IMG/VR virus record: IMGVR_UViG_3300021138_000177
Location: 1-23,422 of that record
From: a virus
Strand: one strand, 5' to 3'
DNA length: 23,422 nucleotides
Each line of letters starts with the position of its first letter. Positions within the stretch are counted from its first letter, which is position 1. Of the stretch, positions 1-15,841 are shown piece by piece. The notes beneath the pieces are model-generated. The model saw nothing but the letters and a program-made list of their open reading frames with translations. It had not been told where the DNA came from and made no database searches. The position numbers were made by a program, and so were the translations under genes.

Positions 1-855
1 GCTGCAGTTCATCTGGACGGTGATACTGTATTAGCCAAAAATAGAGATAGAGGCTATACTGCTAAAATACGTATTGTTCATGAATTAATGGACGGTGTTG
101 AAGTAGTATACTGGTTAGATGAAGATACAGACTGGTGTGAAGGTATGAATGAACATGGTATTGGTATTGTAAATTCAAGTCTACTAGTAGATAAAGATGA
201 AAAAGAAAGTGATAAGATAGAAAAGAAGCAAAAGGGTAATCACGATGCTACTGAGAAGAAGATTACATCAACTGATGGTCTTAAGATTAGACATGCATTA
301 AAACAAAACTCTATTAGAGAGGCTATTAAATCTATTGTATCCTTTGTAGGTAAAGATAAAAAAGACGTAGGTGTAAAGGGACATGTGATGGTAGCTACAC
401 CAAAAGTTAGTTATAATGTTGAATCTACAAGTAAGAATACACCTATTATAACTAAGTTAGACAGAGAAGAGAAAGCTCACACAAGATCAAACCATGGAAT
501 AAAGCATGAGGATGCAGGTTATACTCAAGGTGTTAAAAGAAGATCATCATTATCAAGAAGAGATTTAGCTGCAAGAAACCTAGATGAAATAGAAGATTGG
601 AACGAAGTACTAGATGCAATGGCTAAACAAACTGAATCAGATCCTTTTATGAATCCATTCAGACATGATAATATTCATAAAATGCGTACTATAGGTCAAA
701 TCATGATGAACTTAAACAAACTTAAATTCGTATATAGAGGCACATCAGCACACTCTGAATTTAAAGGATATGATAATAGATTACCAGACGATTACGAACC
801 AAAGATAGAAGTAATAATTTTAGACTCCGTTAAACCAAGAGATTCAGATGATTAA
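1..855 (+). CDS. Ntn-hydrolase-like protein (C45/AAT type), 5'-truncated
   Basis: The reading frame is open from base 1, so the true start lies outside the window; the ATG at 88 is internal. Visible pieces follow the layout of the acyl-CoA:6-APA acyltransferase / choloylglycine-hydrolase type of Ntn hydrolases: an LAKNRDR segment, a GMNEHGIGIVNSS segment, a helix EAIKSIVSF, then SNHG and SSLSRRD segments like the TNH and SSxxR motifs of peptidase C45 relatives. Such enzymes use an autocatalytically exposed N-terminal Cys to cut linear amide bonds; that residue would be upstream and cannot be checked. The middle is Lys-rich and shows no membrane segment. The 3' end overlaps the next gene by 8 bases, so the two are probably cotranscribed. 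The family call rests on remembered motif patterns; the substrate and the role in the phage are unknown. The 5' truncation is caused by the window edge, not by decay. Confidence 0.55.
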   Translation, partial: AAVHLDGDTVLAKNRDRGYTAKIRIVHELMDGVEVVYWLDEDTDWCEGMNEHGIGIVNSSLLVDKDEKESDKIEKKQKGNHDATEKKITSTDGLKIRHALKQNSIREAIKSIVSFVGKDKKDVGVKGHVMVATPKVSYNVESTSKNTPIITKLDREEKAHTRSNHGIKHEDAGYTQGVKRRSSLSRRDLAARNLDEIEDWNEVLDAMAKQTESDPFMNPFRHDNIHKMRTIGQIMMNLNKLKFVYRGTSAHSEFKGYDNRLPDDYEPKIEVIILDSVKPRDSDD

Positions 856-1573
856 ATTAAAACAAGTACTAACAGAAGTACTATTAGAACAAGACATATT
901 AAATAAGTATCCTGAGTTAAATGAAAATAAAGCATTAAAAGCAGGAGCTATGGCATTTATGTCGGCATGTCTAGTAGGACACTCCTACGGACAATGTTCT
1001 CAACAGCTACAAGCAGCAATGCAAAATCCAAACGACCCTAAGAATGCTAAACTATTAGCCGGATCTCAAGTTGATCTAGATAAAAAAATTAGCGGAGCTA
1101 ACTATCAGATGATATCACCTGAAGATAGAGCGTTAATGAAAAAACAGTCAAAAGAAGATGCTGAAGCTGCTAGACAATCTGCTAAACAAGAAAATCGTGA
1201 TTTTAATGATAAGTTTAATCCTAAATTAAATTTACAAGGTGAAAAACTAAGTAAAGAAGAAAGACAGGCATTTACATCTAACTTTAATAATTTTATTAGT
1301 AGAAATCCTCAATTTAAAATAGATCCAAGTAGATATACAGTGGAAGAAAGATATGCTTTCCTTACTAAGGTAGTACAGGAACAATCAGCAGTAAGAAAAT
1401 TAAACGTATTATTTAATAGACCTAATCCGTATGAAAATACTAGAACATCTGCAGATGAACTATACAAACTTATTCAAGATCCTAAAATAAATGGGTTTGA
1501 TAATTTTACTGAAATGTACAAAGCAGGGTTTCCTGGAGTACAATTCCCAGATAATCCACATAAATTTGACTAA
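848..1573 (+). CDS. Tagged hypothetical protein, candidate internal head protein
   Basis: This 241-aa protein is not one I recognise. It begins with MIKLKQVLTE, the same kind of short amphipathic N-terminus as the next two genes, ending in LTE, which fits the [L/I]xE cleavage rule of T4 gp21. A second LxE (LLE) ends at residue 14. Residues 30-44 form a modestly hydrophobic Ala/Met stretch that is too short and weak to call a membrane helix. The rest is charged and Gln/Asn/Lys-rich, with residues 90-160 predicted largely helical and no enzyme motif visible. The ATG lies inside the end of the upstream Ntn-hydrolase-like gene (8-base overlap), and the stop directly touches the GTG of the next gene, so translational coupling is likely. 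I infer a virion or internal head protein from the tag only. Confidence 0.75.
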   Translation: MIKLKQVLTEVLLEQDILNKYPELNENKALKAGAMAFMSACLVGHSYGQCSQQLQAAMQNPNDPKNAKLLAGSQVDLDKKISGANYQMISPEDRALMKKQSKEDAEAARQSAKQENRDFNDKFNPKLNLQGEKLSKEERQAFTSNFNNFISRNPQFKIDPSRYTVEERYAFLTKVVQEQSAVRKLNVLFNRPNPYENTRTSADELYKLIQDPKINGFDNFTEMYKAGFPGVQFPDNPHKFD

Positions 1574-2002
1574 GTGATTAAATTACTAGACATATTAAAA
1601 GAATCGGCTGAACCTAATATTTTTTATTTCGCTTATGGCTCTAATATGGAACACGAGAGAATAAAACATAGATGTCCAGATGCTAAAAAATACTCTAATG
1701 GTATTTTACATGGATGGCAAAGAGGAGTAAATAGAGAGGGGGTTGATACAATAATAAGAGACGGTAAACATTCTCACGTAAAGGGAGTTGTGTGGAAAAT
1801 ATCCAAATCCGATATAGATACCTTAGATAAAAGAGAGGGTGTTGATATAGGTGATTATACCGAGCACTATATGAGTATAGAAACTCCTCACGGAACTAAA
1901 AAATGTTTGACTTACGTTGCTATAGATAGGAAGAGAGGTAAACCAAGACCTGAATACAAGCAAATAGTAAATAAAGGAAAAAAAGAAAATAATATTAAAT
2001 AA
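1574..2002 (+). CDS. Gamma-glutamylcyclotransferase-like protein with N-terminal tag
   Basis: This 142-aa protein carries the gamma-glutamylcyclotransferase (GGCT) fold signature: strand and loop YFAYGSNM at residues 18-25, an Arg-containing helix after it, and LDKREG at residues 84-89, whose Glu88 sits where the family's catalytic acid is found, followed by the usual Tyr-rich strand. GGCTs cyclise gamma-glutamyl amines or peptides, releasing 5-oxoproline. The family domain normally starts almost at the N-terminus. Here residues 1-10 (MIKLLDILKE) form an added tag, and only about five residues separate it from the first strand. The start is GTG, directly abutting the upstream stop; it is supported because the tag matches those of both neighbours. 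The C-terminus is basic (Lys/Arg-rich). The GGCT-like fold call is strong; the true substrate and whether the enzyme is packaged are inference. Confidence 0.8.
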   Translation: MIKLLDILKESAEPNIFYFAYGSNMEHERIKHRCPDAKKYSNGILHGWQRGVNREGVDTIIRDGKHSHVKGVVWKISKSDIDTLDKREGVDIGDYTEHYMSIETPHGTKKCLTYVAIDRKRGKPRPEYKQIVNKGKKENNIK

Positions 2003-2010
2003 ATATAAAC

Positions 2011-2940
2011 ATGATAAAGCTAACCGATTTATTAGTAGAAGCTAAAAAAGTTCCTTCTGCAGGTTTAACCAAGAAGCAAAAAACTAGTATTGAAAAAAAA
2101 ATACACAAGGGTGAGAAGGTAGGACATGGTGGATTTGATAAAGTTGCAAAAGCAGCTGAAAAACAATATGGTTCGAAAGAAGCTGGTCAAAAAGTAGCTG
2201 CTGCTGCAATGTGGAAAAGTAAGGCTAAAAAGATGCATGAATCCGAGGAGCCTCTAACCAACTGGCAAAAGACTGTAAAAGATTCATATGAGCAAGGCTA
2301 TAGAGACGCAAAAGCAGGTAAACCAAACAAGTTTGCACACCTAGAGGAGTGCGACGGATGCGAAAGAAACCCAACTGACTGGAATCCAGGAGAAGAGCAC
2401 ATGGACCACGAAGCATCTATGGCAGATGGTGAACTGAGAGATTTAGTTTCTAATGCATCTAAACTAATAAACACAATTCAACCAGGAGATGATTTACCAG
2501 GTTGGGTATCTGCTTACATTACTCTAGCATCCGACTACATTCACTCCGTACAAGAATTTATGCATGAACAGCAAGCTGAGATGCAAGGGCAGGAGGAACT
2601 ACCAGCGTATGCAGTATTTGAAGCAGAACAAAAACTATTAATGAGAACTGATGCGGGTATTTTTGTTTACAACTTCGGTGGTAAGGAGAACTTTGAAAAA
2701 GCTCAAGAAGCACTTAAGCAAGCAAACGAAGATGGAAAGTACAAAGGACTAGTTTCTTTTGAGAAAAAGACAATTAAAAAAGGAGATAAAATGATTACAG
2801 GATTAGTTATACCAGCAACAATCTGTCCTCCAAATACAACAGCTAAAAGTCAAAAAGCTAAAAATACAGTAGAAGCATTAAAGACAAGAGTACTATCTTC
2901 AATGCCTCAATTAAAGTACGAAGATTACAAGATACACTAA
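2011..2940 (+). CDS. Tagged virion-associated protein, conserved modules
   Basis: This 309-aa protein starts with MIKLTDLLVE, again ending in an [L/I]xE site. Residues 15-72 form a basic, helical module with GGFDKVAKAAEKQYGSKEAG and AAAAMWK, a pattern I associate with small modules recurring in marine T4-like phage structural proteins. Residues 114-133 contain Cys114, Cys117, His130 and His133, a possible zinc site. Residues 158-185 (DDLPGWVSAYITLASDYIHS) resemble another module common in marine phage proteins, a Trp-containing helix pair. The C-terminal half (about 200-309) looks like a separate alpha/beta domain. It is preceded by an A/T-rich 8-base gap without a Shine-Dalgarno site. Enzyme activity cannot be assigned; a head or virion role is inferred from the tag and the modules. 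Confidence 0.8.
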   Translation: MIKLTDLLVEAKKVPSAGLTKKQKTSIEKKIHKGEKVGHGGFDKVAKAAEKQYGSKEAGQKVAAAAMWKSKAKKMHESEEPLTNWQKTVKDSYEQGYRDAKAGKPNKFAHLEECDGCERNPTDWNPGEEHMDHEASMADGELRDLVSNASKLINTIQPGDDLPGWVSAYITLASDYIHSVQEFMHEQQAEMQGQEELPAYAVFEAEQKLLMRTDAGIFVYNFGGKENFEKAQEALKQANEDGKYKGLVSFEKKTIKKGDKMITGLVIPATICPPNTTAKSQKAKNTVEALKTRVLSSMPQLKYEDYKIH

Positions 2941-2949
2941 TAAGTAAAC

Positions 2950-2956
2950 TATTTAT
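2950..2956 (+). promoter_or_regulatory. TATTTAT late-promoter-like motif before the endolysin
   Basis: The context is aaaCTATTTATAtaa, ending 16 bases before the endolysin ATG. It is one of eight exact copies of this 7-mer in short intergenic gaps. No conserved -35 partner is visible, as expected for a gp55-type late promoter. The promoter role is inferred. Confidence 0.5.
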
Positions 2957-2972
2957 ATAAAACAAATTAAAC

Positions 2973-3596
2973 ATGGATTTAAGTAAATTAAAGGGTAAAA
3001 TCCCTCAAGCAGTTTTAGATATACTGCCTCCTGCATTTGAAAAGTATGGTGTAAACACTAACCTTAGAGCAGCACATTTTCTAGCTCAAATAGCTCATGA
3101 GAGTGGTGATTTCACAATCAAGACAGAAAGTATGAACTATCCAACTCCTGCAAGATTAGTAGAAATTTGGCCATCAAGATTTAGTTTAGATGGAGCTGGC
3201 GGTAAGAAAAATGCTCATGACTATGTAAAAAACCAAGAAAAACTTGCTGAAGCAGTTTACGGTGGTAGAATGGGTAATAACAATCCTGGTGATGGTTTCC
3301 GTTTCCGTGGAGGTGGCTGGTTACAGTTAACTGGTAAAGATGCTTATAAAGGATATGCTGCTTATCTAGGTAAGACAGTAGAAGAAACAGCTGATCTATT
3401 ACGTTCAGATAACCATTATGCATTAGATGCTGCTTGTTGGGAGTATACAATCAACATGAAACTGAATCCAGTAGCAGATCAAGGTGCAACTGATGATGTT
3501 GTAAAAGTAATTACTAAAAAAGTTAATGGAGGTTATATTGGATTAGCAGATAGAACTGCTCATTTTCATAAATTCTATAATGCTTTAACTGCCTAA
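2973..3596 (+). CDS. GH19 family endolysin (chitinase/lysozyme-like)
   Basis: This 207-aa protein has the length and motifs of single-domain phage endolysins of glycoside hydrolase family 19, which cut the glycan strands of peptidoglycan. Residues 37-44 (LAQIAHES) carry the probable catalytic acid Glu43, and Glu52 in TESMNY fits the second acid. GDGFRFRGGGWLQLTG at residues 106-121 is the family's substrate-groove signature, followed by NGGYIGL at 185-191. No signal peptide, membrane segment or wall-binding domain is present, so a holin elsewhere would be needed for release unless the protein is virion-borne. Unlike its upstream neighbours it lacks the MIKL tag. It has its own promoter-like motif about 20 bases upstream and no clear Shine-Dalgarno site. 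Confidence 0.92.
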   Translation: MDLSKLKGKIPQAVLDILPPAFEKYGVNTNLRAAHFLAQIAHESGDFTIKTESMNYPTPARLVEIWPSRFSLDGAGGKKNAHDYVKNQEKLAEAVYGGRMGNNNPGDGFRFRGGGWLQLTGKDAYKGYAAYLGKTVEETADLLRSDNHYALDAACWEYTINMKLNPVADQGATDDVVKVITKKVNGGYIGLADRTAHFHKFYNALTA

Positions 3597-3599
3597 GTC

Positions 3600-3606
3600 T
3601 ATTTAT
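3600..3606 (+). promoter_or_regulatory. TATTTAT late-promoter-like motif before the 159-aa gene
   Basis: The context is gtCTATTTATTAaa, right after the endolysin stop and ending 10 bases before the next ATG. It is the same 7-mer as at seven other gene starts. The promoter role is inferred. Confidence 0.45.
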
Positions 3607-3616
3607 TAAAAAGAAC

Positions 3617-4096
3617 ATGATGACTAATAGAGATATTATAAAAAGATTAATTTTAAAGGAGGTTGAAATGATGGAACCGAAAGTTCAAACATTTGAAGAC
3701 GATCCTATTGGATTTATTCTTAAGAAGTATCCCTCTATGACAGAAACCCTACAGATGCTAATGTCAAGTGCCTACAAAGACTATATCACAGGCATTTATA
3801 TTACAGCACCAAAGCCAACAACTTTTAAAATCGTACTACACAACGATCAAGATTTTTACCTAACCTATTTAGGAAAAGCCTACGAAGCAAGTGTTGCTGG
3901 AAAGAAATTCTACTTACAAACTGTAGGAGAGAAAGAAAGGTGTATGAAAGCTATTGCAAGGTTGCTGTCTCTAGGAAATCCAATCCACAATAAAGGACCT
4001 GAAGGAGGAGAAGAAGCTGCCGAAGGATCAGAACCGAAAGGAGCTCCAGAAACACCTTCCCCAGCAGAAGAGAAAGCTGGTGAAACTGAATCATAA
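3617..4096 (+). CDS. Hypothetical protein with tag-like N-terminus and acidic, Pro-rich tail
   Basis: This 159-aa protein is not recognised. The N-terminus (MMTNRDIIKRLILKE) is an amphipathic helix ending in ILKE, again matching the [L/I]xE cleavage pattern. Residues 25-120 look like a compact alpha/beta domain with strands around FKIVLHN and FYLTYLG. Residues 121-159 are a low-complexity, Glu/Pro/Gly/Ala-rich acidic tail that is probably disordered. Two adjacent ATGs (3617 and 3620) could serve as the start; neither has a Shine-Dalgarno site. It closes the first gene group: an intrinsic terminator begins about 10 bases after its stop. A structural or internal head role is only suggested by the N-terminus and the position. 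Confidence 0.75.
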   Translation: MMTNRDIIKRLILKEVEMMEPKVQTFEDDPIGFILKKYPSMTETLQMLMSSAYKDYITGIYITAPKPTTFKIVLHNDQDFYLTYLGKAYEASVAGKKFYLQTVGEKERCMKAIARLLSLGNPIHNKGPEGGEEAAEGSEPKGAPETPSPAEEKAGETES

Positions 4097-4105
4097 AAAA
4101 CTAAG

Positions 4106-4131
4106 CCCTTCCAAACCAGGAAGGGTTTTTT
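4106..4131 (+). terminator. Rho-independent terminator
   Basis: A perfect 7-bp stem, CCCTTCC/GGAAGGG (4106-4112 with 4119-4125), has a 6-base loop and is followed by six T residues. It lies directly after the acidic-tailed 159-aa gene and ends the first gene group. Confidence 0.93.
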
Positions 4132-4182
4132 GTTGCTTGTTACATTTTAATTTAGTATGTTAGGTAAAAACAGATATAAAAT

Positions 4183-4431
4183 ATGGAAAAGACATGTGCC
4201 ACAAAGACAATTAGTACGGTTTGCGGAAAAACAATTAGCTACTTTCAAGAACCAGGCAAGAATGCTAAAATGCACTCTGTAGTAGGACCTGCTTTAGTGC
4301 ATGCAAAGGACGATAAAAAGGCTCCTGAGTATTACATCTTTGGAATCAAGTATTCAAAATCAGTATGGGATCAGTTAGTAAACCAATACAAAGAAGTTAC
4401 TCTGGAGGAGTTAACAAAGTTAGAATACTAA
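4183..4431 (+). CDS. Small hypothetical protein (82 aa)
   Basis: This small protein stands between a terminator and the packaging module. The segment KMHSVVGPALVHAKDD followed by PEYYIFGIKYSKSVW resembles the 'HR-DGPA ... YY-nG' repeat seen in many small phage and bacterial hypothetical proteins; one copy is visible, ending in a Trp/Gln helix. There is no membrane segment and no tag. It contains two N-terminal Cys (residues 5 and 14). The TATTTAT motif is absent from the roughly 50 bases between the terminator and the ATG, so how it is expressed is unclear: read-through of the terminator or a different, earlier promoter class. Function unknown. Confidence 0.65.
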   Translation: MEKTCATKTISTVCGKTISYFQEPGKNAKMHSVVGPALVHAKDDKKAPEYYIFGIKYSKSVWDQLVNQYKEVTLEELTKLEY

Positions 4432-4438
4432 TTGTAGC

Positions 4439-4445
4439 TATTTAT
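4439..4445 (+). promoter_or_regulatory. TATTTAT late-promoter-like motif before the packaging module
   Basis: The context is tagCTATTTATTAg, starting 8 bases after the 82-aa gene and ending 15 bases before the ATG at 4461. It would drive the acidic protein, terminase and portal genes. The promoter role is inferred. Confidence 0.5.
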
Positions 4446-4460
4446 TAGAAATATAACATC

Positions 4461-4877
4461 ATGAGCTTCGACTTAACAAAGTTCTTATTAGAGAATAAAT
4501 TAACAAACAGGGGTAAACTAAACGAAGACCTTGATCTAGACAATACCCCAGACGAAGAGTATGCTGACTCTGACGGAGATTATGAAGATGACTCCGAGGA
4601 TGAAGACTACTCAGATGATTCAGAAAATGAACCAACAGCAAAGGATGTAAAATCAGCAGAGGTACCTACCGATGACCTTGGCCAAACTAATCAAGAGCTA
4701 AGTACTCTGGAAGCTAAAAAGGATAAACTTATAATGCAACTTCGTGCAAATGTTATTGACTTGGATCAATATAAGCATCTTATTAACGGTATCCCAGAAA
4801 GAATTAAAATACTAAGAAGTAAACTTAGTCAAGGAATGACCTTAGACTCTGAAGATGAGGATGATCTTGAGGGATAG
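4461..4877 (+). CDS. Acidic coiled-coil protein, positional small-terminase candidate
   Basis: This 138-aa protein lies directly before the large terminase, where T4 has small terminase gene 16, but I see no sequence motif that proves this. The N-terminus MSFDLTKFLLE resembles the tag of other proteins here and ends in LLE. Residues 22-65 are an extremely acidic Asp/Glu/Ser run and are probably disordered. Residues 78-122 are heptad-like and likely form a coiled coil (LSTLEAKKDKLIMQL and following). A short acidic C-terminus follows. Coiled coils are typical of small terminases, whereas the acidic run and tag fit a prohead-core or internal protein better. The spacing to the terminase start is 22 bases. 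Confidence 0.7.
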   Translation: MSFDLTKFLLENKLTNRGKLNEDLDLDNTPDEEYADSDGDYEDDSEDEDYSDDSENEPTAKDVKSAEVPTDDLGQTNQELSTLEAKKDKLIMQLRANVIDLDQYKHLINGIPERIKILRSKLSQGMTLDSEDEDDLEG

Positions 4878-4899: not shown

Positions 4900-6477
4900 A
4901 TGGCTAGTATAAGCGAAGCAATTAAGAGTGAACTCATAAAATGCAAGGAGGATCCGATTTACTTCATGAAGAAGTATTACACAATCCAGCATCCAACCAA
5001 AGGTAGAATGAGCTTTGCTCTCTATCCTTTTCAGGAAAAAGTTTTGAAACTCTTAGTAAAGTATGACTATACGATCATAAACAAATCAAGGCAGCTTGGT
5101 ATATCAACCTTATCATCAGCTCTTGCCTTATGGTTAATGCTGTTTGAACGAGATAAAAATATTCTTGTACTTGCAACAACTCAAGCAACTGCCAAGAATA
5201 TGGTAACGAAGGTAAGGTTTGCATACGACAACCTACCAGCCTGGATGAAACTTCCAGTAACGGAGCATAACCGTCTAAGTCTAAGACTTAAAAATGGTTC
5301 TCAAATTAAGGCAGTGTCAGCAGCAATCGACTCTGCACGTTCTGAGGCAGTATCCTTGTTAATAATAGATGAAGCAGCCTTCATTGATAAGATCGAAGAT
5401 ATCTTCATAGCTGCTCAACAAACCCTTGCAACGGGTGGTAAATGTATAGCTTTATCAACTCCAAACGGGGTTGGTAACTGGTTTCACAAAGAGTTTTCAA
5501 GAGCTCAAATAGCTGAAAATAAGTTTACTCCAATAAGTTTACCTTGGACAGTTCATCCTGAAAGAACCCAAGAATGGAGAGACGAACAAACAAAACAGTT
5601 AGGAGTAAGAGGAGCGGCACAGGAATGTGACTGTGACTTCAGTACGTCAGGGGATACTGTAATTGAACCAGAAACTCTTACCTATTATGAAAAGACAACA
5701 ATAGAAGAACCTATTGAAAGAAGAGGCATAGGGGGACACTACTGGCTATGGAATCAACCAGATCCAACTAGGAATTATATGGTTGTAGCTGACGTAGCAA
5801 GAGGAGACGGAAAAGACTTTTCAACTTGTCATGTAGTTGATATTGAAACTATGACACAGGTAGCAGAGTATAAAGATCAAATACCAACAAAGCAATTTGC
5901 AAGGTTTCTAGTGTCTGTAGCAGTGGAGTGGAATGAAGCACTACTTGTAGTGGAAAATTCTGGAATAGGTTGGGATGTGGTTACAACCATTGAAGAAATG
6001 GCTTATCGTAATTTATACTACTCTCCTAAGTCAGAGGTAGTAGGAACACAGATAGAGCAATACGTTTTAAAATTTGACAGAGGAGACGGAATGGTGCCAG
6101 GATTCAGTATGAATCTAAAAACAAGGCCGCTCGTTATTGAAAAAGCAAGATCCTTTGTTGAAGATAAAAGTGTTGTAATGAAGTCATCAAGATTGCTTGC
6201 AGAGTACAGGGTATTTATTTGGAAGAACCAAAAACCACAAGCCCTATCAGGCTATAATGACGACTTAGTAATGCCTTGGTGCATAGGATTATTCCTGAGA
6301 GATACTGCGCTACGGTTCAGACAAGCAGCCTACGATTTAACCTATGCAAGCTTGAGTAGTTTTTCGAAATCAACACAAGGTTTTCAAGTTTATACAACAG
6401 CAAACACATACGTAAATAACCCATTCTCAATGGATTTAGGCCAAGCAGGAGCTACCGATATTAGTTGGGTACTATAA
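4900..6477 (+). CDS. 17: Terminase large subunit, gp17-like
   Basis: This is the ATP-driven DNA-packaging motor and headful nuclease that docks on the portal. At 525 aa it is somewhat shorter than T4 gp17 (610). The ATPase domain shows a Walker A region KSRQLGIST at residues 62-70, Walker B LLIIDEAA at 153-160 (Asp157, Glu158) and coupling motif ALSTPNG at 184-190. The RNase-H-like nuclease domain shows ADVARGDG (Asp298), VVENS (Glu352) and YNDDLVMP (Asp454/Asp455), matching the three-acid site. The usual P-loop Lys position is Ile68; a Lys at 62 could replace it, as in the lambda gpA-type P-loop. All other motifs are intact, so this does not look like decay. The portal gene follows after 9 bases, and tail genes 18 and 19 do not intervene. 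Confidence 0.97.
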   Translation: MASISEAIKSELIKCKEDPIYFMKKYYTIQHPTKGRMSFALYPFQEKVLKLLVKYDYTIINKSRQLGISTLSSALALWLMLFERDKNILVLATTQATAKNMVTKVRFAYDNLPAWMKLPVTEHNRLSLRLKNGSQIKAVSAAIDSARSEAVSLLIIDEAAFIDKIEDIFIAAQQTLATGGKCIALSTPNGVGNWFHKEFSRAQIAENKFTPISLPWTVHPERTQEWRDEQTKQLGVRGAAQECDCDFSTSGDTVIEPETLTYYEKTTIEEPIERRGIGGHYWLWNQPDPTRNYMVVADVARGDGKDFSTCHVVDIETMTQVAEYKDQIPTKQFARFLVSVAVEWNEALLVVENSGIGWDVVTTIEEMAYRNLYYSPKSEVVGTQIEQYVLKFDRGDGMVPGFSMNLKTRPLVIEKARSFVEDKSVVMKSSRLLAEYRVFIWKNQKPQALSGYNDDLVMPWCIGLFLRDTALRFRQAAYDLTYASLSSFSKSTQGFQVYTTANTYVNNPFSMDLGQAGATDISWVL

Positions 6478-9295: not shown

Positions 9296-9979
9296 ATGAA
9301 TATACAATTTGCAACTCAGTTTTTAAGAGAAGAATTAGATGAATTTGATTCATTAAGAAGTGCATTATCTGAACTAGGTGCAAGCAAGGATACTATTGAT
9401 CTTTTAGTAAATGCAGTAGCAAAAGGACGTATTGAACCTTCAAAAGCAATAGAAATTGTTAAGAGTACTGTGGTTAGAGAGGACGGTGCAGCTGGTAGTA
9501 TGACTGGTGGTGGTACAACAGGTGGTGCTAGCTTTACTCCAGGAACTGGTGAACAGTATGCATCAACAAAAGCATTCAAAAGGGTAAAAGAGGATGCTCC
9601 AATCCTAGCAGGAGGCAAAGCGGATATTAGCACTTACACTCAGGACGGTTTCACAGGTGCTCCATCCATACCAAACCGCAAATCAAAAGCAATTGATTAT
9701 AAGAAATTATTTGAAGATGACTTAGTTTCTGAAAACTATTCACGTTTTAAAACAGAAACAAAGGTACGTCCAAAAGCAGAACAATACCACCAAGCCATAA
9801 AAGTGGCAAATAGAAAACTGGATGAGGTGAATAAGATTCTAGAATTTACATCAAGAATGAAAAATGAACTATCTGAAGGAGAACAAACATTGGAAGTAAA
9901 AGGACACACAGTAAAAGCAGCTGAAAAATTAAAAGCAAAAATAGCTGAGGCATATAAAAAAATCAAAACACTAAGTTAA
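9296..9979 (+). CDS. Prohead-core-like protein with capsid-type Gly-rich linker
   Basis: This 227-aa protein follows the preceding stop without a gap. Residues 1-62 are helical and acidic (N-terminus MNIQFATQFLREELDE, with LRE fitting the [L/I]xE rule). Residues 68-90 form a linker, TGGGTTGGASFTPGTGEQYA, nearly the same as residues 65-82 of the major capsid protein in this window. Residues 160-227 are a basic helical domain (KLDEVNKILEFTSRMKNELS to the Lys-rich end). No catalytic motif is visible. The split into an acidic helical N-part, a Gly-rich linker and a basic C-part suggests a processed head-core protein. I know no standard T4 gene name for it; gp67/gp68 sit in this place in T4, but I see no direct match. 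Confidence 0.78.
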   Translation: MNIQFATQFLREELDEFDSLRSALSELGASKDTIDLLVNAVAKGRIEPSKAIEIVKSTVVREDGAAGSMTGGGTTGGASFTPGTGEQYASTKAFKRVKEDAPILAGGKADISTYTQDGFTGAPSIPNRKSKAIDYKKLFEDDLVSENYSRFKTETKVRPKAEQYHQAIKVANRKLDEVNKILEFTSRMKNELSEGEQTLEVKGHTVKAAEKLKAKIAEAYKKIKTLS

Positions 9980-10127: not shown

Positions 10128-11543
10128 ATGAAGAACATCAATAGCCAATATAAGGACCTGAAAGAAGGTAAAATGTCTCAGGCAAACTTCATGCGTAACT
10201 TACGTATGTCATTACCTCAGTACATAGCTCCAACCACATCTTACATAGATGCGATTACTATCCTTAAAGGAAAGAGAATCTTAAGTGAGTCTCTACCGAC
10301 AGAGACTACTGTAAGTGAAGTAATTGAAGCTCTATTTGATGGTGACTTTGATAACGATCCAGGTAAGCTACTTGCTGCAAAAGAAGCAATTCAGGCTTCA
10401 AATCACTCAGATAAGAGTGTTGCTTTGGGATTACTAGATAAGAAGTTGAAAGAAGCGATGGATGCTGAGACAAGAGGTCAAGCAGCTCACGACGATGCTC
10501 AATGGAGACGTAAACGTGGATTAGAAGAAACCAAAAAGCCTCTTAAAGAAGCTAAAAAACAAAAAGAAGTACCGAGTATAAACCACGTTGATTACATTCA
10601 ATTAATGAAAGGTACAGTGTATGAGTTGGAAAAAATGCCAGCTGTAACAGATGAAAATGCAGCAAAAGCTAAAGAAAAAGCATACAAAGCTCTTACAAAA
10701 GATCCAAATGCTTATAGACACCTGCTTATAGCTAACTACAAAGAGATTGAAAAGAAGGACAAGGCTCAAAGAGCCGAACCAGCCAAGAAAGATAACTTAG
10801 TTAACAAGGCTAATGAGATGAAAACTGCTAAGAAAAACGAACAAGCTAACACTAAAACAACTTTAGGTAAGCAAGAAAAGGCTAGTAAAAATCCAGAAGG
10901 AGTTAAGCAACTGAAAGAAGCTCTAGGTTACTGGATGAATAAACCAGCCGATGCTGAGAAATATAAAATCAAGAAAGACGAAAAAGGAAGAATACTACAA
11001 GCTACCAACGATGAAGGTCAAACTTTTAGTAAAGGAGACGCTGCGACTGCTGTAGATAATGGCGAAAAGATTGCTATTAGTAGTTTCATAGAACAGCAAG
11101 GTAAGGTAAAAGCAGTCTATATGGTACGTGGAACAGCCTACACCATAGATATTGACGGATTAGAAAAAGGAACAACTAATGAAGCTGTCAAAGCATTAAA
11201 AGCAACCATCCTAAAAGAGTTCCAAGCGATACCTAAACCAGCTCCAATCTACGCAGCAGGACATGAGGTTGTAACTCCTGATGGTAAAAGAGGTACGATT
11301 GAAGAGCTTACGAAAGATAATACAGCTTATGTAAAGTTTAAAGATGGTAACATTCAACACTACCAAACAAACGTACTAAAGCCAGCCAGTGAAGTTGAGG
11401 ATATGGATGAGGTTTTAACAGCTAAAACTGGAGATGCAAGCCACGATGAAGCTAGCCTAACAAGAATAAATAAAATAGCAGACCCAACAGCAAAAGCAAG
11501 CATAAGCAAGGCTTTTACAAGCGGTCAAGCAGTAGACATTTAA
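10128..11543 (+). CDS. Conserved T4-like head-region protein upstream of the protease
   Basis: The 471-aa product begins with a conserved-looking block (residues 15-55: KMSQANFMRNLRMSLPQYI, then TSYIDAITILKGKRIL) that I recognise from uncharacterised proteins next to gene 21 in marine T4-like phages. Residues 95-275 are very rich in Lys, Ala and Glu with short helices and low complexity. Residues 378-418 (GHEVVTPDGKRGTIEEL through FKDGNIQHY) resemble a small KOW/SH3-like beta barrel. No catalytic motif is visible. Its stop is followed after one base by the protease ATG, so coupled translation is likely. A scaffold or core role is inferred from position and composition only. Confidence 0.8.
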   Translation: MKNINSQYKDLKEGKMSQANFMRNLRMSLPQYIAPTTSYIDAITILKGKRILSESLPTETTVSEVIEALFDGDFDNDPGKLLAAKEAIQASNHSDKSVALGLLDKKLKEAMDAETRGQAAHDDAQWRRKRGLEETKKPLKEAKKQKEVPSINHVDYIQLMKGTVYELEKMPAVTDENAAKAKEKAYKALTKDPNAYRHLLIANYKEIEKKDKAQRAEPAKKDNLVNKANEMKTAKKNEQANTKTTLGKQEKASKNPEGVKQLKEALGYWMNKPADAEKYKIKKDEKGRILQATNDEGQTFSKGDAATAVDNGEKIAISSFIEQQGKVKAVYMVRGTAYTIDIDGLEKGTTNEAVKALKATILKEFQAIPKPAPIYAAGHEVVTPDGKRGTIEELTKDNTAYVKFKDGNIQHYQTNVLKPASEVEDMDEVLTAKTGDASHDEASLTRINKIADPTAKASISKAFTSGQAVDI

Positions 11544-11544
11544 T

Positions 11545-12174
11545 ATGAATAAACAAACTCTTATAGAATATTTACCATTCCAACCTTTACCAAGACAACT
11601 TAGTGAAGCGAGGATGAGTCCAAATAAACCCTTCCTAGTATCTGGAAAGGTGCAGGCTGCTGATCAACCTAATGCTAATAAGAGGATTTACGATTTCGAT
11701 ACTCTAAGAAAGCAAGTAGACCTATACATACAAGGTCCGATCACAGAAAAGAGAGCTCTTGGAGAACTCGATCATCCAGAATCAAGTATCATAAACCTAA
11801 AGAATGTTTGTCATAATATTACAAGACTTTGGTGGGAAGGTAAGGAACTCTACGGAGAATTTGAAATATTACCAACCCCGTCTGGAAATATTCTGAGAGA
11901 GCTATTTCTTGCTGGAATTAATGTTGGGGTATCATCAAGAGCGATGGGATCTGTAACTCCAATAGGAGAAGGTCTTGTGCAAGTTGGAGAGGATCTTGAG
12001 CTAGTATGCTGGGATTTCGTTTCAACACCAAGCACTTATGGAGCTTACGTAAAGCCGGTAGGAGGATTACAGGAAGGCTACAATCCACAACAAACTAACA
12101 AAGAGCGTAGTTCAATTGACAGATTAATATCTGATATCATTTGTACGCAAGCAGGTACGTGTTGTCTTAGGTAA
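11545..12174 (+). CDS. 21: Prohead core protease, gp21-like
   Basis: This is the assembly protease that degrades the scaffold, trims the capsid protein and removes tags inside the prohead. At 209 aa it is close to T4 gp21 (212). The herpesvirus-assemblin-like serine protease features are visible: NKRIYDFDTL (45-54), GELDHPESS with probable catalytic His77, GVSSRAMGS (128-136) with the nucleophilic Ser130 or Ser131, and CWDFVSTPSTYGAYV (155-169) closing the fold. T4 gp21 cuts after [L/I]xE; such sites occur in the scaffold, the capsid protein and several N-termini in this window. The C-terminal Cys cluster (QAGTCC) is unusual. The gene ends just before a terminator. Confidence 0.95.
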   Translation: MNKQTLIEYLPFQPLPRQLSEARMSPNKPFLVSGKVQAADQPNANKRIYDFDTLRKQVDLYIQGPITEKRALGELDHPESSIINLKNVCHNITRLWWEGKELYGEFEILPTPSGNILRELFLAGINVGVSSRAMGSVTPIGEGLVQVGEDLELVCWDFVSTPSTYGAYVKPVGGLQEGYNPQQTNKERSSIDRLISDIICTQAGTCCLR

Positions 12175-13511: not shown

Positions 13512-15191
13512 ATGTCAAACTTAGTAAATTCACTATTAGAGAGTGCTAACCCATACCACGATCAAATGGGAGTATCTCAAAGATTAGCCAAGAAATGGGC
13601 TAAATCTGGCCTTTTAGAAGGTCTAACCGATTATAACCGTAACACTATGGCTATGATCCTTGAAAACCAAGCAAAGCAACTAGTAATCGAAGCTTCACAA
13701 TCAGGTGGAGGTTCTACTACAGGTGCAACTTTCACTCCAGGTGTTGGTGAACAATGGGCTGGTGTAGCTTTACCATTAGTTCGTAAGATCTTTGGTCAAA
13801 TCGCATCTAAAGAGTTCGTTTCAGTTCAACCAATGAACCTACCTGCAGGTTTAGTATTCTTCCTAGATTTCCAATATGGAAACAACAAGGATCCATTCAA
13901 CACTACTCCAGGAACTAACTCAGTATATGGTAACCAAACTATAGTAGGTGATTCTACTTTTGGTAACGATAAGGCTGGTGGTCTTTATGGTGCTGGTAGA
14001 TTTGGATACTCAATCAACCAATTCTCTGCATCTGTATCTAGCTCATTAGCTCTAAGCTCTTCAGCAGTATACTATGATGTTAATTTTAACGCTGATTACT
14101 CTGCATCCGTTGCAGCAAGCAAGATCACTAAGTTATCAATTCCTACAAGCTCTCTAGTTAACGCAGATCTAAATAGTATTCGTGGATTTATTGTAGTATC
14201 AGCTTCTGCTGTAACAGCTGCTAATAACATCCAATCTCTTACTGAAACTTCTGCAAGTGCTGGTGGTGCATATGTTAACTTCTACTTGGTAAACAACACA
14301 GCATTAGCTGCTAACGGTTCTTATGTAGTGGAGTATAACAAGGCGACTGATTTCAACAAACGTGGTGATTTCGAAGATGGATTTGGTGGTTCTAACTACG
14401 CTGTTCCAAACAATGCTTCAACTCAGTCAATCGTTATCCCTGAGATCAACGTTCAAATGAGAAGTGAAACAATTTCTGCTAAGACTCGTAAGTTAAAAGC
14501 ACAATGGACTCCTGAGTTTGCTCAAGATCTTAATGCTTACCACTCACTAGATGCTGAAGCTGAATTAACTGGTATGCTTTCTGAGTACATCTCTTTAGAA
14601 ATCGATCTTGAGATCTTAGATATGCTTATTCAAAATGCTCCAACTTCTGACTACTGGTCAGCTCAAATTGGTAACCAAATCAATGCAACTCAGTCTGGTT
14701 TCAATAGTAACACTGCAGGTGCATACTACAACCAAATGTCTTGGTTCCAAACAATTGGTATCAAGTTACAAAAACTTTCTAACATCATCCACCAAAGAAC
14801 TTTAAGAGGTGGTGCTAACTTTATGGTATGTTCTCCAACAGTAGCTACAATCCTTGAATCAATCCCAGGATTCGCAGCTGATACTGACGGTGCAGCAGAT
14901 ACAATGAAATATGCATTTGGTGTTCAGAAGATTGGTGCATTAAATAGCCGTTACAAAGTATACAAAAACCCATACATGACTGAAAACACAATCCTATTAG
15001 GTTTCCGTGGTAATCAGTTCCTTGAGTGTGGTGCTGTATACGCTCCTTACGTGCCATTGATCATGACTCCATTAATCTACGATCCTCAGACATTTACTCC
15101 GCGCAAGGGTATAATGACTAGATATGCGAAGAAAATGATCCGTCCAGAGTACTATGCAACACTATTAGTAGCAGATCTAAACGTAGTGTAA
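13512..15191 (+). CDS. 23: Major capsid protein, gp23-like
   Basis: This forms the hexameric head shell. At 559 aa it is close to T4 gp23 (521). After the precursor N-terminus (MSNLVNSLLESANPYHDQ) come a linker (GGGSTTGATFTPGVG, 65-79) and the HK97-fold shell: ALPLVRKIFGQIASKEFVSVQPM (86-108), the P-domain pattern LEIDLEILDML, and the C-terminal part with FRGNQFLECGAVYAPYVPLIMTPLIYDP and the basic GIMTRYAKKMIRPEYYA. T4 gp23 loses its first 65 residues to gp21; candidate cuts here are after Glu60 (VIE, atypical Val) or Glu51 (ILE). A Ser/Ala-rich insertion at about 165-285 probably forms a surface domain. An A-rich gap without a Shine-Dalgarno site precedes the start, and a terminator follows the gene. 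Confidence 0.97.
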   Translation: MSNLVNSLLESANPYHDQMGVSQRLAKKWAKSGLLEGLTDYNRNTMAMILENQAKQLVIEASQSGGGSTTGATFTPGVGEQWAGVALPLVRKIFGQIASKEFVSVQPMNLPAGLVFFLDFQYGNNKDPFNTTPGTNSVYGNQTIVGDSTFGNDKAGGLYGAGRFGYSINQFSASVSSSLALSSSAVYYDVNFNADYSASVAASKITKLSIPTSSLVNADLNSIRGFIVVSASAVTAANNIQSLTETSASAGGAYVNFYLVNNTALAANGSYVVEYNKATDFNKRGDFEDGFGGSNYAVPNNASTQSIVIPEINVQMRSETISAKTRKLKAQWTPEFAQDLNAYHSLDAEAELTGMLSEYISLEIDLEILDMLIQNAPTSDYWSAQIGNQINATQSGFNSNTAGAYYNQMSWFQTIGIKLQKLSNIIHQRTLRGGANFMVCSPTVATILESIPGFAADTDGAADTMKYAFGVQKIGALNSRYKVYKNPYMTENTILLGFRGNQFLECGAVYAPYVPLIMTPLIYDPQTFTPRKGIMTRYAKKMIRPEYYATLLVADLNVV

Positions 15192-15286: not shown

Positions 15287-15841
15287 ATGGCAGATAAAAG
15301 ACAACACACGTGTACAAGCTGCGGAAAGAGCTTAGTTTACGATAATGTAGGCAGCTGGAGAAATGCTAAAACAAAGCTAGGTAGGACGGGCATTCTACGA
15401 TGTCCTCCCTGCGCTGGAAAAGAGGGTAGAGCAGCTAGCACCAAGAAAATACCAGGCAGACCTAAGGGAAGCAGAAATAGCTACAAAGTAAAAAAGGGCA
15501 GCGTGGTAGCTGAAAACATAGGTTGGCATCGGTTTGAAACCAGGATGCTACAAGTAGCTAGAAGAAACGGATACGAAACTTACGAAGACTATAGAAGTAG
15601 CTTAGATGCATGGAAAGCTTATAAATTAGATGTATGGAGAACCACCAACCAGCAGCCTTTACACTTATTAGAAAACTATGACAAGAGAGGGGTGAATGGA
15701 GAAGAAGGTGCTTATACGCTAGATCATATAGAAAGTATACGCAAAGGCTTCAATAACAACATACCCCCAGAACAAATAGGACAATTTTCAAATCTACAAA
15801 TGCTACCTTGGTTGGATAACATTACGAAGGGCTGGAAATGA
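15287..15841 (+). CDS. HNH-type nuclease-like protein with N-terminal zinc ribbon
   Basis: The 184-aa product has an N-terminal zinc-ribbon pattern (Cys9, Cys12, Cys39, Cys42), then an AT-hook-like KIPGRPKGSRN (54-64), a helical middle (80-125), and a C-terminal HNH-like block: TLDHIESIRKGF (144-155) with Asp146-His147, Asn169 in NLQMLPW, and DNITKGWK (177-184) with Asn178 and Lys181. This is the beta-beta-alpha-metal layout of HNH nucleases, which nick or cut DNA with one metal ion. Its unit is flanked by a terminator upstream and its own promoter motif, directly after the capsid gene, where T4 carries homing gene segD between genes 23 and 24. It may be a free-standing homing endonuclease or a transferred nuclease. 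By eye it uses AGC for Ser more than its neighbours, a weak sign of transfer. Confidence 0.75.
   Translation: MADKRQHTCTSCGKSLVYDNVGSWRNAKTKLGRTGILRCPPCAGKEGRAASTKKIPGRPKGSRNSYKVKKGSVVAENIGWHRFETRMLQVARRNGYETYEDYRSSLDAWKAYKLDVWRTTNQQPLHLLENYDKRGVNGEEGAYTLDHIESIRKGFNNNIPPEQIGQFSNLQMLPWLDNITKGWK

Follow-up and report, generated by a model that had tools for sequence, protein, structure and literature searches.

A short N-terminal tag on unrelated proteins of far-T4 phages, a probable capsid-targeting propeptide

The IMG/VR virus record IMGVR_UViG_3300021138_000177 was analyzed over its whole length of 23,422 bases (hereafter the window). The nearest isolate, judged by the capsid protein, is Flavobacterium phage immuto (54.6% identity), followed by Microcystis phage Mel-JY01, and the window was therefore assigned, as a fragment, to the far-T4 phages; the capsid protein of Rhodothermus phage RM378 is more remote. 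From position 4,900 onward, the window carries a head module with terminase, portal and core genes, a gp21-type protease, a scaffold-like gene and a gp23 capsid gene. Immediately upstream of this module sit three genes, at 848, 1574 and 2011, whose products start with MIKLKQVLTE, MIKLLDILKE and MIKLTDLLVE (Table 1). A preliminary description had proposed that these N-termini tag unrelated internal proteins for packaging into the head and for processing by a gp21-like protease encoded at 11545. The three starts and the protease gene are all present, and no mutual similarity was found among the bodies behind the tag, of which the 1574 one alone could be named (AIG2/GGACT gamma-glutamyl cyclotransferase-like). 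The tag, here called T1, has the consensus MIKLxD[IL]LxE, which the three genes fit or nearly fit.

The T1 tag is strongly bound to gene starts. In 2.7 Mb of related DNA, 27 genes carry the strict T1 core two residues past the start codon, and the reversed motif occurs once. The rate of the core after start codons was 1.15e-3 versus 4e-5 elsewhere, about 27 times the background. The search of relatives for the MIKLxxxLxE start that had been suggested beforehand bore the tag out: a position profile matched 36 of 2,067 genes in nine far-T4 genomes (1-7 per genome) and 0 of 9,641 internal methionines, the training set including many of the profile's own matches, so that the information lies in the zero counts. 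Among the tagged genes of immuto are immuto26A_40, _184 and _189. In IMG/VR, at least 120 stretches matched a degenerate DNA pattern for T1, against 32 for a control with reversed codon order. Among the matches listed, about one quarter of the stretches carry two to four T1 tags, which no control stretch does.

The proteins behind the tag are highly diverse. The 255 T1-tagged proteins fall into 98 body families (BLAST, 1e-4), with gene starts assigned by rule, some tag residues imposed by the search patterns and contig sets that are not fully independent. An alignment of 103 representatives, in which column identity averaged 5%, showed practically no conservation apart from MIKLxDILxE. Pfam matches on the bodies comprise ART-PolyVal, zeta toxin, AAA, NUDIX, RNase_T, phosphoribosyltransferase, cell-wall hydrolase, LRR, the DUF6782 metallopeptidase and DUF5872, and PHROGs matches comprise 5'-3' deoxyribonucleotidase and polynucleotide kinase. 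The majority of T1 bodies have no assigned function.

T1 is not the sole tag of this kind. A blind search for N-termini shared inside one genome yielded T2 (MKKSELxQIIxEEIxxxLNE) and T3 (xNFDLKKYLVENKLTxNSxLLxE), each found in at least 120 IMG/VR stretches, with 3 and 0 stretches, respectively, for the reversed-codon controls. In immuto, T2 and T3 genes are located within the head module. Looser versions of the tag had also been proposed in the window: the 4461 product (SFDLTKFLLENKLTNRGKLNE) proved to be a true T3 member and the N-terminal LLE of the capsid protein is conserved among relatives, while the starts of the 3617 and 9296 products remain weak candidates. A fourth, small tag type, MKxQLNEVKRMQxLAGIxxE, was observed on several proteins, some within the head module (L003:5795-6091, L014:7871-8587, L082:4774-5238 and others). 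The four types together cover 612 proteins in 305 body clusters. In fourteen of these clusters, different tag types occur side by side, and the largest of the fourteen may have been joined through chaining; the CPxPTQ family is found behind T1 and T3, and the GTLYHFT family behind T1 and T2.

T1, T2 and T3 all finish in L-x-E, the type of site cut by the gp21 prohead protease. The T1 glutamate is partly imposed by the search pattern; the T2 LxE near residue 20 is absent from its pattern. Where E10 was not imposed, 85 of 132 T1 N-termini have E, and several exceptions show LxE about one helical turn later. For T2, 78% of the proteins have [LIV]xE in residues 13-25, versus 9-15% in later windows. 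Proline directly follows the glutamate in 0/237 T1 proteins (8-21 prolines at positions 12-19), 0/72 T2 proteins and 0/101 T3 proteins, counts that overstate the strength of the exclusion since members of the same family are not independent. Cleavage after the LxE glutamate is likely because of these endings and the proline exclusion, because the capsid proteins of relatives retain LENQAKQLVVE/S at the expected maturation site, and because T4 gp24 starts with MAKINELLRE.

We then considered signs of packaging. In a survey of T1-tagged contigs of at least 22 kb, picked by the tag alone, gp21 was found in 22 of 36 tagged versus 2 of 32 control contigs, and gp23 in 17 of 36 versus 1 of 32 (Fisher p = 0.0004 and 0.009, respectively, with controls of at least 22 kb only). 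All five T1-tagged contigs above 150 kb carry both genes, two more T1-tagged contigs carry a T4 portal, and both gp21 and gp23 are present in 18 of 27 T2/T3 contigs. The method of searching for shared N-termini, run blind on T4, paired ipII with ipIII and put Alt together with its neighbour, and also gave a few homologous families and one weak pair. In addition, a stretch that follows LLSE within L024:6256-7917, a relative of the window's core protein 10128-11543, shares 62% identity with residues 7-68 of the 2011 protein. Packaging is likely on account of the gp21 and gp23 genes in tagged contigs, the T4 control, the T2 and T3 genes in the immuto head module and this shared core domain. The tags display what marks T4-type propeptides: a short N-terminal peptide common to otherwise unrelated proteins, an [L/I]xE ending of gp21 type, and a co-encoded gp21-family protease and gp23 capsid, both in the window (11545 and 13512) and in the survey.

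The element TATTTATA looks like a late promoter. In immuto, it precedes 10 of 28 structural genes, 4 of 15 tagged genes and 0 of 40 replication, metabolism and glycosyltransferase genes, in hand-made gene lists and with the element picked after inspection. Strand agreement, looked at with regard to late expression with virion genes, was 46/47, a weak signal (p=0.02). The element is strongly oriented and lies 3-20 bases ahead of many start codons, before 272 of 2,518 far-T4 genes versus 38 for TATAAATA; it occurs at 2950, 10116, 15268 and 15867 in the window and also in immuto (L085-L088). It was rejected as an element specific to tagged genes, since about 11% of the genes in the whole set have it in front of them.

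Known systems offer close parallels. The T4 capsid-targeting sequence, about ten residues conserved in IPII and IPIII, brings foreign proteins into the core (PMC9958956; Mullaney and Black 1996, as relayed in PMC9958956, PMC3012670 and PMC9391042), and gp21 strips short N-terminal peptides off T4 internal proteins and Alt (PMC9958956). The internal proteins of T-even phages are described as highly diverse defence proteins in which the targeting sequence alone is conserved (PMC3012670); IPI inhibits GmrSD restriction, and on some hosts IPIII is required (PMC9391042). The preliminary description had IPI-III all starting with MKTYQEFIAE, which is true of IPII and IPIII, whereas IPI starts with MKTFKEFTSTTTPVSTITE. 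A 54-residue open frame of T4 (L316:18966-19130, minus strand) starts with MKTFKEFIKED, near the IPII/IPIII sequence, and may encode another packaged T4 protein. T1 resembles the T4 sequence as an N-terminal peptide of about ten residues on unrelated proteins (injected in T4), with a gp21-type xE end, a gp21 protease in the phage and the same M-x-x-[Y/L]-x-[E/D]-[F/I]-[I/L]-x-E spacing. It differs in that T1 alone serves about 100 body families, many of them enzymes, with several interchangeable tags in one lineage, and in mostly uncultured phages. T4 Alt, an injected ADP-ribosyltransferase, and gp24, whose start is near the T1 pattern, also have short N-terminal propeptides cut off by gp21; each T4 propeptide, however, is found on one or two related proteins, whereas T1 is on a large set.

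In the giant phage SPN3US, the gp53/gp54 paralogs have an identical N-terminus, likened to the T4 targeting sequence, and the inner-head proteins of SPN3US and phiKZ bear cleaved N-terminal propeptides and are ejected, but these propeptides mostly exceed 100 residues and sit on giant-phage paralogs (PMC5694885). Virion-borne effectors with disparate domains are known as well: polyvalent proteins have been put forward as injected effectors (PMC5512222), and the first 30 residues of P1 DarB are enough to package a reporter (PMC9024508). In polyvalent proteins, a single chain unites many domains; here, such domains mostly lie on separate tagged proteins. Gene neighbourhood has served to predict ADP-ribosyltransferases and NUDIX proteins that are packaged in heads (PMC9503650), and since the ART-PolyVal and NUDIX bodies of T1 match families for which packaging had been predicted before (PMC9503650, PMC5512222), they were counted in favour of packaging. 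No description of the tag was found in the literature searched, where MKTYQEFIAE is likewise unmentioned and the papers found on packaged effectors are general work. The tag system acts like the T4 capsid-targeting sequence, yet is different, far larger and multi-tag, and is undescribed in that literature.

We infer that MIKLxD[IL]LxE serves far-T4 phages as a capsid-targeting propeptide, which a gp21-type protease cuts off and whose cargo is injected, and give this a probability of about 0.83. Late-made cargo would be docked into the prohead core by the tag, through an amphipathic N-terminal helix; cleavage past the LxE glutamate by the gp21-type protease would then leave the cargo free in the head beside the DNA; and the cargo would enter the host with the DNA at infection. 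T1, T2 and T3 would be at least three interchangeable tags of this type, and host takeover or counter-defence is the probable role of the tagged bodies. The packaged and processed set of internal proteins proposed in the preliminary description gains support from the LxE ends, the gp21-type protease in the same phages, the proline exclusion and the tag swapping, and it further fits the T4 positive control, the domain shared with a head-core protein and the late-type promoter element, even though the latter was picked after inspection. At the level of sequence, packaging and processing are strongly supported, though unproven.

Several observations weigh against this interpretation. The T1 profile matched 0 of 868 genes in T4, Syn9, P-SSM4 and HTVC008M, which include two cyanophages and a pelagiphage. 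T1 is unlike MKTYQEFIAE, agreeing with it in spacing and residue type only and giving no T4 profile match. T1 genes number just 1-7 per genome and are not always close to head genes, and head genes go undetected on some tagged contigs, probably on account of their fragmentary state. The tag is also borne by enzymes that could act in the producing cell. The same N-terminus on clearly non-virion enzymes had been named at the outset as a sign against packaging; enzymes do carry the tag, but no polymerase, helicase, primase, recombinase or reductase is among the T1-profile genes listed.

The tagged enzymes would also fit a localisation, partner-binding or turnover signal acting in the infected cell, with the proteins staying out of the virion. 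An amphipathic helix at the N-terminus could have many binding partners, and secretion signals in immuto likewise yield shared N-termini. Such a role is nonetheless unlikely, since the tag goes together with gp21 and gp23, the LxE ends show proline exclusion, the same bodies bear several unrelated tags that end alike, and T4 gave a positive control. A slightly better case, although still a poor one, can be made for tagged proteins that enter the prohead core merely as scaffold filler and are degraded or expelled at maturation, like gp22, gp67 and gp68, with no delivery to the host: core proteins digested by T4 gp21 likewise have LxE motifs, and genes inside the head module carry T2 and T3. Most bodies, however, have one LxE at the tag and then background only (about 10-20% per 13-residue window), and many are folded enzyme families, as expected of delivered proteins.

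A shared start with no function as a peptide, arising as a translation leader or from recombination that copies gene 5' ends as a by-product, is very improbable. A nucleotide-level bias does exist over all loci at codons 6 and 7, with GAC used for D6 in 49% (background 19%) and ATA for I7 in 91% (background 47%). The remaining tag codons are at background, synonymous choices at I2, K3, L4, L8 and E10 matching those of the bodies, and therefore the peptide is what is retained; moreover, one body can bear different tags in turn. Recent copying of the tag at the DNA level was mostly rejected on the same codon evidence.

Beyond the targeting propeptide itself, the chances seem even that the tags make up an address code of far-T4 phages. 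In this code, short N-terminal tags of several kinds (T1, T2, T3 and probably others), interchangeable and self-removing, each with perhaps its own docking place on the prohead core, would supply virions with a large, swappable arsenal of host-acting proteins (about 300 body clusters sampled).

Other features of the window were also inspected. In the 9296-9979 protein, the GGASFTPGTGEQYA stretch behind the second (VVRE) site resembles GATFTPGVGEQWA behind the capsid protein's own site. In this and other core proteins (L030:6336-7208, L041:5758-6246, L082:16454-16675), the sequence behind the presumed cut includes a TGTGASFTPGTGEQYATPKAF-like stretch that is similar to the post-cut stretch of the capsid protein. 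The edge-truncated protein at 1-855 has, by eye, an Ntn-hydrolase look (NEHGIGIVNSSLL) with no Pfam match, and its N-terminus, hence any tag, falls beyond the window edge. The 184-residue protein at 15287-15841, between the capsid and PhoH genes, looks by eye like an HNH-type endonuclease. DctP and RST Pfam matches of window proteins were disregarded, being below curated cut-offs.

Table 1. Tags, candidate cargo genes and head genes of the window.
Feature	Position	Strand	Remarks
T1 tag MIKLKQVLTE of 241-residue protein	848..877	+	ATG start; expected cut after E10; profile and controls
Tagged cargo candidate 1	848..1573	+	Body without relatives in the sets searched
T1 tag MIKLLDILKE of 142-residue protein	1574..1603	+	GTG start, immediately behind the stop of the preceding gene
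Tagged cargo candidate 2, AIG2/GGACT gamma-glutamyl cyclotransferase-like	1574..2002	+	Pfam AIG2_2 5.9e-14; phrog_2520 8.9e-14
T1 tag MIKLTDLLVE of 309-residue protein	2011..2040	+	ATG start
Tagged cargo candidate 3	2011..2940	+	Residues 7-68 recur in a relative's head-core protein
159-residue protein starting MMTNRDIIKRLILKE, weak tag candidate	3617..4096	+	Not picked up by the profile
T3 tag MSFDLTKFLLENKLTNRGKLNE of acidic protein preceding terminase (gene 4461-4877)	4461..4526	+	Tag-family searches
227-residue core-like protein	9296..9979	+	FLRE and VVRE sites
Head-core protein	10128..11543	+	Relative L024:6256-7917 holds domain of tagged 2011 protein
gp21-type head maturation protease	11545..12174	+	phrog_207 2.4e-45
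gp23-type capsid protein	13512..15191	+	Expected maturation cut LENQAKQLVIE/ASQ after E60 (codon 13689-13691)

If the propeptide reading is true, a ten-residue signature would flag which proteins of uncultured T4-type phages enter the host with the DNA. The flagged proteins would include likely counter-defence and takeover enzymes, amounting to hundreds of candidate injected effectors. The tags would also provide a new set of addressable packaging signals and a handle on how the prohead core picks its cargo.
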